A DNA stretch of 64,000 bases from Bacillus sp. Cs-700 (GTDB taxonomy: Bacteria > Bacillota > Bacilli > Bacillales > Guptibacillaceae). Below, piece by piece: positions 23,708 to 56,832 of the stretch. The position numbers and the translations under genes are program-made. Within the stretch, counting starts at the first letter, position 1. Every line of letters begins with the position of its first letter. The notes beneath the pieces were generated by a model that was not told where the DNA came from, made no database searches, and was given only the letters and a program-made list of their open reading frames with translations. Location of the stretch: the NCBI RefSeq assembly GCF_011082085.1, contig NZ_CP041063.1:868001-932000 (forward strand), in the 5' to 3' direction.

Positions 23708-24622
23708 CTATTTCTTTAATCCTAACTGAATTAAGTTCTCAATCATTTGCTCATAAGAATAACCAATTTCTTTCGCTGCATCTGGGAATAAACTAGTTGG
23801 AGTCATTCCGGGTAGCGTGTTTACTTCAAGAAATACTGGTTCAGATCCATCTTTAGGTACGATATAATCCACACGTGAGTACGTATCGCATCCAAGTAAT
23901 TCGTGTGCAACAACAGATTGTTTTTGAATTAGTTCTGTATAGGATTCAGAAATACGAGCTGGAACGATGTGTTCACTTCCACCTTCTGCGTATTTCGATT
24001 CATAGTCGTAGTAAGCGTTCTTTGGAACAATTTCCACAACGGGAAGTGGTTTTACTTCTCCCTTTGAGCCCATCACAGCAACTGTTACTTCAGTCCCAGA
24101 AATAAACTCTTCTAGAATGACCGTATCATCAAATCGAAACGCTTCTTCAATCCCTTTTTGAAGCTCCTCTTCCGATTTAGCAATGGTTAATCCAATCGTC
24201 GATCCCTCGCTGTTTGGCTTTACCACAACTGGATAACCAAATGGTAAATTAAGTGAATGATGATCGTCCGACTTATGGAGAACAAGATCCTGTGCTAAGC
24301 GTATCCCAGAATCTTTTAATACTTTTTTGCTTTTAGCCTTATCCATTGCAACTGCTGATCCTAGAACTCCCGATCCCACATATGGGATTTGCAGCATATC
24401 AAGGAGTCCTTGAATCCTTCCATCTTCTCCATACTTACCGTGAAGGCCGATAAAAATAATATCAACCTCAAGTTCCATCACTTCTGATAATCGTTCTGGA
24501 TGAAAGTCTATACCGATTACTTCATGACCGTTTTCTTTTAAAGCTTTCATGATCCCTTTACCGCTAGATAGGGAAACTTCTCTTTCAGCAGAAGTTCCTC
24601 CATAAAGTACTCCAACTTTCAT
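23708..24622 (-). CDS. ddl: D-alanine--D-alanine ligase
   Basis: ATP-grasp enzyme joining two D-alanines for peptidoglycan precursors. 304 aa, the short DdlB-like form: YGGTSAEREVSLSSG at 8-22, GLHGKYGEDGRIQGLLD near 57-73, PVVVKPNSEGSTIGL near 140, and EVNTLPGMT near the end, all ATP or D-Ala binding segments. It lies alone between gudB and a divergent PIG-L gene, unlike B. subtilis where ddl is with murF. Confidence 0.95.
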   Translation of the reverse strand: MKVGVLYGGTSAEREVSLSSGKGIMKALKENGHEVIGIDFHPERLSEVMELEVDIIFIGLHGKYGEDGRIQGLLDMLQIPYVGSGVLGSAVAMDKAKSKKVLKDSGIRLAQDLVLHKSDDHHSLNLPFGYPVVVKPNSEGSTIGLTIAKSEEELQKGIEEAFRFDDTVILEEFISGTEVTVAVMGSKGEVKPLPVVEIVPKNAYYDYESKYAEGGSEHIVPARISESYTELIQKQSVVAHELLGCDTYSRVDYIVPKDGSEPVFLEVNTLPGMTPTSLFPDAAKEIGYSYEQMIENLIQLGLKK

Positions 24623-25542: not shown

Positions 25543-25579
25543 CTAACAAAACCTCCCAAATGGGAGGTTTTGTTAGTTA
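25541..25579. terminator. bidirectional terminator between PIG-L gene and ypbH
   Basis: A perfect 18-bp inverted repeat (AACTAACAAAACCTCCCA and its complement) with a 2-nt centre that contains the stop codons of both converging genes. Confidence 0.93.
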
Positions 25580-26163
25580 AAATAATGATTTAACTGTTCA
25601 ATCGCTGTTGAGTTCATAATTTGCTTCCCATATTCCATTACCCGATAGCTTGTAATCGTTGAAGGATTTCCGAATTCAGCAAGCAACGCAACTAAAGAAT
25701 CTAATTCATACTCAGCAAATTCTTCTTCATCAAATTTAAGATAAAATTGAGACTGGAAGGAATAAAGAGTACCACCTAAAATTCCAACGTTGATTAATCT
25801 TTTAGAAAGACCAATCACGTCCTCAAAAGATCGAAATTCATAAAATACTTCATCGCTTTCATCGAGCGTAACTTGCATTTCAATGTATTCGTCATTATAG
25901 TCATCTTCAAAATCACTTTCTGCCGAACCCTTCGTAACAATGACAACCATTCCTTGAGCAGGAAGTGAGAAAACTTCTACAGCAATTGGCCCATCAACTT
26001 TAAAGCCAAGTTCATCGTCAGCTTCCATTATCATCTCACGAAATAGCCTGTGAACTTTCGGTACGTCCTGCCATAGCTCTTCTTTTGTAATTCCACGTTC
26101 ATTTAAATCATCATAAGTTAAAAAAATCTTTATTTTATCGTACGCTAAACGTTCAAGACGCAT
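25573..26163 (-). CDS. ypbH: MecA-type adaptor protein YpbH
   Basis: Adaptor of the MecA family that delivers substrates to the ClpC ATPase. 196 aa: an N-terminal domain (MRLERLAYDKIKIFLTYDDLNERGITKEELW), an acidic linker (SDFEDDYNDEY near 110) and a C-terminal Clp-binding domain with GGTLYSFQSQFYLKF. It is closer to YpbH than to MecA by position next to ypbG and by its N-terminus. Confidence 0.9.
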   Translation of the reverse strand: MRLERLAYDKIKIFLTYDDLNERGITKEELWQDVPKVHRLFREMIMEADDELGFKVDGPIAVEVFSLPAQGMVVIVTKGSAESDFEDDYNDEYIEMQVTLDESDEVFYEFRSFEDVIGLSKRLINVGILGGTLYSFQSQFYLKFDEEEFAEYELDSLVALLAEFGNPSTITSYRVMEYGKQIMNSTAIEQLNHYFN

Positions 26164-26303: not shown

Positions 26304-27221
26304 CTAAGTAGTCAGCTTTTGAATTTTATCTTTGATCCAAACATCCCACTCATCTTTACCATTTCCAACGAAAAAGGAGTCATAGGCCTGTCTCTTTTCA
26401 CCGCGTAAATGCCCAATAGCAGCGCCACCTATACCGATCGTTAAATCAGTGAAGCGCTGATCAAGGCGATCAACGAGGTCAAGGCATCTTGGTAAATTTG
26501 CCATTAACGTACATGATAAAAATAATATTTTCGGATCTGTATCTTCAACAACCGTCTCAATATCATCCTCTGGAATGCTTGCTCCTAGATAAATGACTTC
26601 AAATCCTTTTCTTCTTAAATAAAGAGTGAAAATCAACAAACCAAGTTCATGGTATTCCCCTGACGAGCAAACCGCCATCACTTTCGGAAGATAACCATCA
26701 ACAGGAAGAGTGTGGAATATCATCCCAATTCTTGATCTTAGAAAAGCACTTGTAAAATGTTCATGTGCAATCGTAATTTTTTCATTTTCCCAAAGATCTC
26801 CTACCCTAACTAATAGCTGGGCAAGGATGTCATGTACTACCTTATCAATACTAAACACAGAAAACGCCTGATTCAACAGATCCTGAGCTTTATTCTCGTC
26901 GAAAGCAAGTAGCGCTTCTAATATTTCATCAGCAAGTATATGAGCTCGATCTCTTTCCATATCAATTCCCATACTATCTGTATCTGTTGAATCATTTCCA
27001 TTTTCAAGCAATTCTACAGCTTGACTAATTGTAAAACCTTGCTCTGTTTTTTGGACAAGCCATTTTAAGATAGACATATGTTCTTCCGAATAAAGACGAT
27101 GACCTGCCTCATTTCTTATCGGAGAAATAATATTATAACGCCTTTCCCATGCCCTTAAGGTCCCAGGTTGTATTCCTAATTTCTTCGAGACCGCTTTAAT
27201 ATTATACTTACCTGCAGACAT
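26304..27221 (-). CDS. MerR-family regulator with B12-binding photosensor domain (CarH/LitR-like)
   Basis: 305 aa in three parts: MerR helix-turn-helix at 6-72 (LGIQPGTLRAWERRY), a four-helix cap at about 90-175, and a cobalamin-binding Rossmann domain at 180-300. Key residues of AdoCbl photoreceptors are all present: W144 then E154-H155 (the Wx9EH motif of CarH), E189-x-H191-x-x-G194 for the lower axial ligand, S236 and GGAA at 266. In CarH, dark AdoCbl-bound tetramers repress; light breaks the Co-C bond and releases DNA. The start is the ATG 9 nt after GAGGGG. Target genes are not evident, except itself. Confidence 0.85.
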   Translation of the reverse strand: MSAGKYNIKAVSKKLGIQPGTLRAWERRYNIISPIRNEAGHRLYSEEHMSILKWLVQKTEQGFTISQAVELLENGNDSTDTDSMGIDMERDRAHILADEILEALLAFDENKAQDLLNQAFSVFSIDKVVHDILAQLLVRVGDLWENEKITIAHEHFTSAFLRSRIGMIFHTLPVDGYLPKVMAVCSSGEYHELGLLIFTLYLRRKGFEVIYLGASIPEDDIETVVEDTDPKILFLSCTLMANLPRCLDLVDRLDQRFTDLTIGIGGAAIGHLRGEKRQAYDSFFVGNGKDEWDVWIKDKIQKLTT

Positions 27222-27258: not shown

Positions 27259-27300
27259 AGTATAAGGGGTGAATGATGTTTGTGTAAACTTTGTATAACC
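27259..27300 (-). promoter_or_regulatory. promoter and candidate operator of the B12/light regulator
   Basis: Minus strand -35 TTTACA (27283-27288), 18 bp, -10 TATACT (27259-27264), each 5/6 to sigma-A. The -35 lies in two adjacent 11-bp direct repeats, tttgtgtaaac (27279-27289) and tttgtataacc (27290-27300), identical at 9 of 11 positions. Tandem 11-bp repeats overlapping a -35 box are how CarH binds, so autorepression is likely. Confidence 0.6.
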
Positions 27301-27320: not shown

Positions 27321-28079
27321 TTATTTCCTTTTTAATATAAAAACATGTGATTCTGCAGGGGCCATCAGTCTTAAAGGTAACGTTGTCGTACCATACCCAT
27401 TACTAATGACGACCGTAGTTCCTTTAACTTTTTTAATGCCCCCTTTTTCTCGAATTCCCCACCCAAATAAACGTATTTGACCTCCATGAGTGTGACCAGA
27501 AAGAATAAGTTGTATTCCACTATTGTCAGGCCAGTTTCGCTTAATATCAGGGTTATGGCTGATCAGTATTTTTGTTTTTTCGGTGGCTTCTTTAACTGCA
27601 TCCTCTAGTGAGTCATTTTCTGTTGAAAGATCATCAATACCTATTAAACTTATTCCCTCGCCACTATTTTTAAGGTTTATTGCTCGATTCTTAAGAATGA
27701 TAATATCTTCTTCCATTAACAGTTTTTCAAGTTTGACGGGGTCTTCTTCGTAATCGTTATTCCCCCATACAAAGTAACAAGGTGCTATAGCCCGTAGAGA
27801 TTTTATATTATGGCGAACTTTCTCAAAGGAGACCCCTTTTTCCATAACATCTCCCCCAATAACGATGATGTCAACTTGATTTCTTACTTTTTCTAATACT
27901 TTGTTTGAAATATATCGATTATGAGTATCCGAAATAAAAAAGATTCGATAGGAATCGAAACTTTCTGGTAAATTTTCGACATCAATCTCTTTCCTAACGA
28001 CTCTGTTAAGATGTGCTTCAGTCCACATGTAGATTAGAAGCACTATTCCAATTAAAACAAGGCCAACAAAATAAATCAT
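27321..28079 (-). CDS. ypbG: membrane-anchored metallophosphoesterase YpbG
   Basis: Calcineurin-like phosphoesterase. 252 aa with an N-terminal transmembrane helix (MIYFVGLVLIGIVLLIYMW), then the metal-binding series FFISDTHN, GGDVME, GNNDYE, ISHNPD and SGHTHGG in order, all five motifs intact. The active domain is predicted outside the membrane or at its surface. Substrate unknown. It overlaps the upstream membrane-protein gene by 4 bp. Confidence 0.87.
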   Translation of the reverse strand: MIYFVGLVLIGIVLLIYMWTEAHLNRVVRKEIDVENLPESFDSYRIFFISDTHNRYISNKVLEKVRNQVDIIVIGGDVMEKGVSFEKVRHNIKSLRAIAPCYFVWGNNDYEEDPVKLEKLLMEEDIIILKNRAINLKNSGEGISLIGIDDLSTENDSLEDAVKEATEKTKILISHNPDIKRNWPDNSGIQLILSGHTHGGQIRLFGWGIREKGGIKKVKGTTVVISNGYGTTTLPLRLMAPAESHVFILKRK

Positions 28080-54462: not shown

Positions 54463-54524
54463 AAAATTATATGCCAAATAAGCCTTTTGAATCCAGGATT
54501 CAAAAGGAGATTAGTCATAATTTT
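54463..54524 (-). other. nested hairpins between FMN aptamer and terminator
   Basis: Minus strand: AAAATTAT (54517-54524, end of aptamer) pairs with ATAATTTT (54463-54470), and inside sits a perfect 12-bp palindromic hairpin CCTTTTGAATCC-T-GGATTCAAAAGG (54483-54507). The outer pairing could be part of the antiterminator or a spacer helix. Confidence 0.55.
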
Positions 54525-54661
54525 CCTTCTCCCATCCAGACTATACTGTCGGTTCTGGTTTCACACCAGATCCACCGTTTGCTTACGCAACCGGGTCACG
54601 GACTTAGCTAGCTTAAGCTAGACATCACCGCCGGTTGGGACTTTCACCCGACCCCGAAGGA
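54523..54661 (-). ncRNA. FMN riboswitch (RFN element) aptamer of the rib operon
   Basis: Minus-strand sequence shows the RFN consensus blocks in order: TCGGGTGAAAGTCCC, ACCGGCGGTGATGTC, AGTCCGTGACCC, GGTGGATCTGG, CCGACAGTATAGTCTGGATGGGAGAAGG. FMN binding would favour the terminator at 54430-54462 and shut off ribD-ribE-ribBA-ribH. It starts 28 bp after the ppiB stop. Confidence 0.95.
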
Positions 54662-54688
54662 AAGTATTTAGTTTTGATGGTGTCTGAA

Positions 54689-56628: not shown

Positions 56629-56645
56629 CTCCGTATCCTCACGAG

Positions 56646-56832
56646 TTGGATTAGCTCACCACCGAAAAAATTCCTCTTTCAGTGACAGTCTGCAACTTGT
56701 TCAGCAGCAGCCCAGCAAGAAAAGTATGGCTCTTTTCTCACTTCGGCAAATTGACCTTTCTGATATCATCCTCGCATTCCATTCTATGCTCAAATACCAT
56801 ACTCATTCGTTTTGCGCCTCTATCCCCATTAC
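56646..56832 (-). ncRNA. lysine riboswitch (L box) of lysA
   Basis: Minus-strand conserved blocks: GGATAGAGGCGC at the 5' side, TGAGTATGG, GCCGAAGTGAGAAAAG, GGGCTGCTGCTG, GACTGTCACTGAAAGAGG, and GGTGGTGAGCTAATCC at the 3' side; GGAT/ATCC close P1. Lysine binding would favour the terminator and lower lysA expression. Confidence 0.88.

Follow-up and report, generated by a model that had tools for sequence, protein, structure and literature searches.

A predicted CarH-type light sensor in an ancestral gene slot of Bacillales and its putative link to an unlinked crt-like operon

Introduction

Could the MerR-B12 protein encoded between ypbH and ypbG in Bacillus sp. Cs-700 act as a light-responsive repressor, and which genes might it control? 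The gene lies within a stretch of 64,000 nucleotides (contig NZ_CP041063.1, positions 868,001 to 932,000), referred to as the window in the following, and was assigned to the CarH/LitR type by an earlier note that considered its regulon open. In the CarH family, binding of adenosylcobalamin (AdoCbl) in the dark leads to oligomerization and repression, while light photolyses the Co-C bond and frees the DNA (PMC8156234, PMC9758184). We consider it likely, with a probability of roughly 85%, that the window protein is the Pseudalkalibacillus ortholog of Bacillus megaterium CarH/LitR, acting in the dark as a repressor of its own gene as well as of an unlinked crt-like operon, and being released by light. 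Domains, motifs, fold match, synteny and conserved repeats provide the direct basis for this reading.

Results

The window protein has the domains and cofactor motifs of CarH

The window protein follows the domain order of CarH and class I LitR, that is MerR, then the four-helix and then the Rossmann B12 subdomain, and each domain passes its Pfam cut-off (MerR_1, E-value 2.3e-15; B12-binding_2, 6.6e-16; B12-binding, 1.7e-16), which bears out the MerR domain and B12 module claimed earlier. It also carries the Wx9EH motif of these proteins (W144, E154, H155), and E189, H191, G194, S236-x-T238 and G265-G266 make up a full B12 motif, ExHx2Gx41SxTx26GG, to be compared with D/ExHx2G/Px41SxT/Vx22-27GG as given for CarH and class I LitR (PMC9304148). 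W144, E154, H155, E189, H191 and G194 were indeed found where the earlier note had placed them, and the spacing of 47 residues between W and His, as opposed to 46 in Thermus CarH (TtCarH), is correct as well, as Trp131 and His177 of the latter give 46 (PMC10442372). When the window protein was aligned with 20 orthologs (48-88% identity), W144, A152-H155, E189, H191 and G194 proved invariant, so that the B12 and capping residues are no chance occurrence. A structural comparison with CarH, proposed in the earlier note, revealed that the AlphaFold model of the window protein fits the Thermus CarH structure. Judged by sequence, the gene thus encodes a well-conserved CarH-type light sensor.

Supply of AdoCbl is plausible in this genome, as suggested by two adenosyltransferase matches; adenosyltransferase as such does not discriminate between genomes, being present in 80 of 80. 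The genome also encodes what we take, from sequence, to be mutase-like B12 proteins. A search of plasmids yielded no DNA match, and protein matches to Thermus and Caballeronia alone.

The gene occupies an ancestral slot and likely corresponds to CarHBm

A quick tree with flagged long branches separates the MerR-B12 proteins of Bacillales into two clades, group A (window type) and group B. The neighbours named earlier proved correct: a PRK02899 equivalog, ypbH, and a calcineurin-like phosphoesterase, which we take to be ypbG by its position. When 40 genera with strong group-A matches were represented by one locus of 11 kb apiece, ypbG was found upstream in 38 and ypbH downstream in 38, both in 36 and at least one in all 40. 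By gene order, the ypbG-carH-ypbH slot is therefore ancestral in the order, and a local insertion was rejected. The claim that Bacillus subtilis lacks the gene held, as this species, one of 14 control genomes, is not among the 12 with a B12-binding match.

Of 14 genus genomes, the own one among them, 13 yielded the carH-type gene, as did the sole other genome of the family searched. The exception, G012, was rejected as a genome having the repeats (see below) without the gene: its contigs end at window-equivalent positions 24028 and ~30137, no other contig end examined matches the stretch between, and the slot including ypbG and ypbH appears to be unassembled. Order-wide, matches of 246 of 397 genomes reach E <= 1e-50, a figure that lumps both groups together; named holders include Priestia, Metabacillus, Cytobacillus, Fictibacillus and Halobacillus. 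The top named match is from a strain of Pseudalkalibacillus hwajinpoensis (98%), a second strain of that name reaching 85%.

Five genomes of megaterium-clade Priestia (5.1-6.0 Mb each) contain a single MerR-B12 match down to E 1e-12, which belongs to group A and is 51.7-52.3% identical to the window protein. These proteins are 97.7-100% identical to a named P. aryabhattai protein, whose gene adjoins ypbG and ypbH, and the carH promoter of the P. aryabhattai type comprises four tandem perfect repeats. Binding of CarHBm has been described for operators with four such repeats, or with three plus a pseudorepeat, that lie over the -35 or -10 (PMC9304148), and LitR of B. megaterium is under light control (PMC9758184, PMC6739363). 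From the sole MerR-B12 gene, the shared slot and the CarHBm-like four-repeat operator in megaterium-clade Priestia, we infer that CarHBm belongs to group A and that, most likely, the window protein is orthologous to CarHBm/LitR of Bacillus (Priestia) megaterium QM B1551.

Conserved direct repeats mark the own promoter

In the published operators of CarH and class I LitR, 11-bp n4TnnACAn repeats stand in tandem, three or four in number, and overlap promoter elements. Upstream of the window gene, the 17-bp site TATACA-n5-TACACA is identical in every one of the 13 gene-bearing genus genomes, the own one included, and a third, upstream repeat is visible by eye in many other genera. The accompanying promoter TTTACA-18-TATACT agrees with the consensus in 10 of 12 letters and is tied for the best of the region; as 10 such sites compare with 8.4 in shuffles, it is a consensus match only. 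To follow the site through group A, 155 rows were thinned to 94 by dropping any that shared 85% or more identity with a retained row. An intact B12 site is present in 76 of the 94, and 51 of these 76 score at least 14/17, a threshold picked after the scores had been seen.

A scan of the own genome with the self-promoter pattern returned the own promoter as sole match without mismatch. Among 41 relatives, scanned with up to one mismatch, eight further sites were examined (those of G011, G014 and G018 are outside the eight): a recurring site within a long open reading frame (ORF; G000, G006, G008, G010) and a recurring intergenic site before a terminator-like run (G000, G009) were set aside as targets, and the sites in G015, G027 and G031 fall within or at ORFs that have no bearing on the question.

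An unlinked crt-like operon carries similar repeats

The absence of an adjacent carotenoid gene, as stated earlier, was confirmed; that the regulon is wholly open was not, as repeats occur at the own promoter and, as found in the search for the 11-bp repeat near crt that the earlier note had proposed, at a crt-like operon on the same contig, ~447 kb away (G000:C1:443813-447589). In this crtN-crtP-crtM-like operon, two genes pass the cut-off of the crtI family and a further one is of the SQS_PSY type; the view that the latter is YisP-like and crt absent was rejected, since it is the third gene of the operon. Its upstream region contains TGTGCA-n5-TGTTGA at the -35 (TTGAAC) and TGTATA-n5-TGTATA-n5-TGTGCG at the -10 (TATAAT). 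The sequence TGTATAATGTTTGTATAA lies over the -10 in all 12 genus genomes examined (own included; G007 and G014 left out), and the -35 repeat pair is present in 9 of these 12. In resamples of the own crt upstream region, TGTATAATnnnTGTnnA arose in 6 of 20,000. Three perfect units over the -10 were found in 6 of 6 crt upstream regions of the Priestia family (f44); three perfect units also occur in G352 and before a crtM-like gene of the sister genus. In G062, which has a degenerate CarH, the one crt upstream region examined contains no perfect unit (n=1). The crt-like operon and the carH-type gene itself are thus probably members of a putative regulon, which thereby partly closes.

Orthologs with a lost B12 site retain the operator less often

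One or more B12 residues are missing from 18 of the 94 group-A rows. Losses range from a single residue (H155R in L064 and L206) to complete (L104, L105, L106, L107); in the latter four and in L235, L236, L238 and L247 the B12 site is wrecked and the MerR domain kept. The degenerate loci checked (n=11; L129-L133, L216, L222, L235, L236, L238, L247) have ypbH downstream in 11 of 11 and ypbG upstream in 8 of 11 cases. As degenerate rows are scattered over the quick tree, several losses are likely. In statistics that ignore phylogeny, the operator score of at least 14/17 is reached by 51 of 76 intact versus 2 of 18 degenerate rows (Fisher p 2.4e-5), and at least two perfect tandem repeats by 36 of 76 versus 2 of 18, which is weaker (p 0.006). 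The B12-site losses form a natural series in which the retirement or conversion of a light-sensing repressor could be studied.

His132 of Thermus CarH is replaced in group A

In TtCarH, His132, the neighbour of Trp131, becomes the upper ligand after light (PMC10442372). The statement that every CarH residue is present fails at this very position, where the window protein has E145. Glutamate occupies it in 72 of the 76 intact group-A proteins and, single variants aside, in the Priestia proteins examined, and position 153 is His in 75 of the 76. With Glu at this place, group-A proteins should not reach the bis-His state of TtCarH via that residue; by sequence comparison, the window protein must reach a TtCarH-type bis-His light state in another way, or never. 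This raises the question of how CarH proteins without His132 complete the photocycle. A literature search, conducted mostly without subscription papers and hence weak evidence of absence, found no paper on CarH lacking His132.

A small ORF is a further candidate target in the genus

Scanning the genus for three repeats gave 54 matches, compared to 8 for the reversed control. Two recurring families were judged by their appearance to be unrelated to CarH: one presumably represents DnaA-box clusters (TTATCCACA), and the other, before an MgsR/Spx-like gene, resembles in our estimation a sigma-B promoter. Two more matches in the own genome are L374 and L375. A further array precedes an undescribed ORF of 61-67 residues without Pfam match. 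Of the 14 genus genomes, 7 have four perfect repeats in this array and 2 have three, and the remaining 5 lack a match fitting the site; in the own genome, the four repeats are at G000:C1:3342649-3342687 and the ORF of 66 residues starts at ~3342723, near argS. A GerA-type spore-germination operon is divergent from the small ORF in 8 of 9 genus genomes examined; in G007 it is not divergent, yet the small ORF and the repeats are kept. Homologs of the ORF occur in 9 of 79 genomes. Of ten homolog upstream regions examined, solely the one from the same genus has the four-repeat array, imperfect repeats being visible by eye in the sister genus; as the array is missing from homologs of other genera, this target constitutes genus-level evidence only.

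Further B12-type proteins and other elements

Seven genomes yielded two MerR-B12 matches each. G189, G097, G249, G126, G068 and G168 hold one gene of either group, while both matches in G116 are neighbouring fragments of one group-A gene. By eye, the group-B gene L127 is divergent to crt-like genes, and the group-B genes L114, L118 and L122 have a similar-looking gene of 264-269 codons upstream in the same orientation, whose product resembles a membrane protein. Elsewhere in the own genome, L370:3641-5087 (G000:C1 ~2896640-2898086) encodes a B12-binding protein that stands alone and has a W-x9-EH and an ExHx2G of its own, and after it a STAS-domain protein of 256 residues; this pair may represent a second light sensor of the coenzyme-B12 kind, one that feeds into a stress-type pathway. 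The window also contains flavin mononucleotide (FMN) and lysine riboswitches (54520-54665 and 56644-56830, minus strand), which are ordinary for Bacillales.

Table 1. Features of the carH-type locus; positions refer to the window.
Feature	Position	Strand	Basis or remark
carH/litR-type gene	26304..27221	-	305 residues plus stop; ATG at 27221, start codon behind GAGGGGAAG
MerR winged-helix DNA-binding domain, residues 6-73	27003..27206	-	Pfam PF13411
B12-binding_2 subdomain, residues 97-167, helical cap above upper face	26721..26933	-	Pfam PF02607 and helices of AlphaFold model
Rossmann-type B12-binding subdomain, residues 180-273	26403..26684	-	Pfam PF02310
W144-x9-E154-H155 adenosyl-capping motif, E145 at TtCarH His132 place	26757..26792	-	sequence
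Lower axial ligand motif E189-x-H191-x2-G194	26640..26657	-	sequence
Direct repeat 1, TATACA (TnnACA)	27292..27297	-	17-bp site conservation
Direct repeat 2, TACACA, 11 bp past repeat 1, overlaps -35	27281..27286	-	17-bp site conservation
Sigma-A type promoter TTTACA-18-TATACT of carH-type gene	27259..27288	-	consensus match only
ypbH (MecA/MecB-type adaptor), conserved downstream neighbour	25573..26163	-	PRK02899 equivalog above cut-off
ypbG-type calcineurin-like phosphoesterase, conserved upstream neighbour	27321..28079	-	family match and position

Discussion

Motif, fold, Priestia synteny and the tandem 11-bp putative operators support assignment of the window protein to the CarH/LitR type. 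From these features we infer cobalamin binding, DNA binding, a response to light and a change of oligomer state, which may be arranged as follows. In the dark, AdoCbl would be bound with H191 beneath the cobalt and W144, E154 and H155 above the adenosyl group, and the oligomer would occupy the tandem 11-bp TnnACA repeats overlapping sigma-A promoter elements, keeping both the regulator gene and the distant crtN-crtP-crtM-like operon repressed. Green or blue light would break the Co-C bond, upon which the oligomer would disassemble and the promoters open, and carotenoids would be produced in the light.

Several observations weigh against this reading. E145 stands where TtCarH has His132, and the NCBIfam CarH equivalog is matched with 138.4 bits, short of its cut-off of 400, which is an annotation threshold and no mechanistic feature (Priestia proteins were left out of this scoring). 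The own promoter has just two perfect repeats, fewer than the published three or four, and two tandem repeats appear in 269 of 20,000 first-order resamples of the own upstream region; their evidential weight comes from conservation, and 25 of the 76 intact orthologs fall under the operator threshold. With up to two mismatches, the self-promoter scan of the own genome showed no enrichment (57+57 matches as compared to 96+79 in the reversed control). Orthology to CarHBm was drawn via other megaterium-clade genomes than that of QM B1551.

Other explanations have to be considered. The protein could be a photoreceptor of the CarH kind for which the crt operon is no target, the repeats there serving another regulator. 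TnnACA is indeed short, and the three-repeat scan also caught DnaA-like boxes and the site at the MgsR/Spx-like gene; however, spacing and -10 overlap are alike in the Priestia family, the sister genus and G352, and the crt upstream region from the degenerate-CarH genome G062 lacks perfect units (n=1), which makes this explanation unlikely. A regulator resembling CarA, which keeps the B12 fold and acts without B12 and light via another signal or an antirepressor, appears more improbable still. Myxococcus CarA works B12-free (PMC8156234), and several group-A orthologs that share the slot have lost B12 residues but kept the helix-turn-helix domain, making a B12-free life possible. The window protein, however, retains Wx9EH, whose absence largely explains the B12 independence of CarA (PMC8156234), the B12 residues are kept in all 13 genus genomes with the gene, and the operator is kept more often in intact-site than in degenerate orthologs. 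We give least credence to a sensor of the coenzyme B12 level that would tune genes to cofactor supply rather than to light. MerR and B12 domains would suffice for this task and the genome has further B12 proteins, but the candidate targets comprise genes of carotenoid type together with that of the regulator, rather than B12 genes, Wx9EH caps the adenosyl group in the light sensor, and LitR of B. megaterium is light-controlled (PMC9758184, PMC6739363).

Returning to the CarH/LitR ortholog as the preferred reading, the regulon put forward comprises the own gene, the unlinked crt-like operon and the new small gene. It is conceivable, though we would put it somewhat below even odds, that in Pseudalkalibacillus the switch both represses the small-ORF gene via promoter-spanning repeats and attains its light state without a bis-His step, perhaps via the conserved H153. 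If so, light control would extend beyond pigment.

How does the window protein relate to known systems? Group-B proteins of Bacillales (e.g. L127, L117) have the same architecture at 30-38% identity and keep W and EH in the displayed rows, but mostly have Q at the H153 place of group A (19/20), and none of 15 loci is in the ypbG-ypbH slot, their gene contexts being varied. TtCarH (PDB 5c8d/5c8e/5c8f) shares domain order, Wx9EH, the lower His and the fold with the window protein, whereas identity amounts to ~25-30% in structural alignments and the residue preceding Glu-His differs (Glu in TtCarH, H153 in the window protein). CarA of Myxococcus xanthus is likewise a crt repressor of MerR-B12 architecture; it differs in being B12-independent and lacking Wx9EH (PMC8156234), the motif that is intact in the window protein. 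CarHBm comes closest, with the same slot (seen in the named P. aryabhattai) and the same type of 11-bp repeat at the own and crt promoters. Differences lie in the number of units: the own promoter has two perfect repeats in the window genome and four in the CarHBm type, and the crt promoter here has two perfect units and a pseudorepeat over the -10, to which a further pair at the -35 is added in 9 of the 12 genus genomes examined. Thus, the type of photoreceptor is already known, and what is added here are its ancestral slot, the putative operator at the unlinked crt operon of the genus, the small-ORF candidate and the repeated losses of the B12 site. A photoreceptor type characterised in one Bacillus is thereby placed in an ancestral slot across Bacillales.
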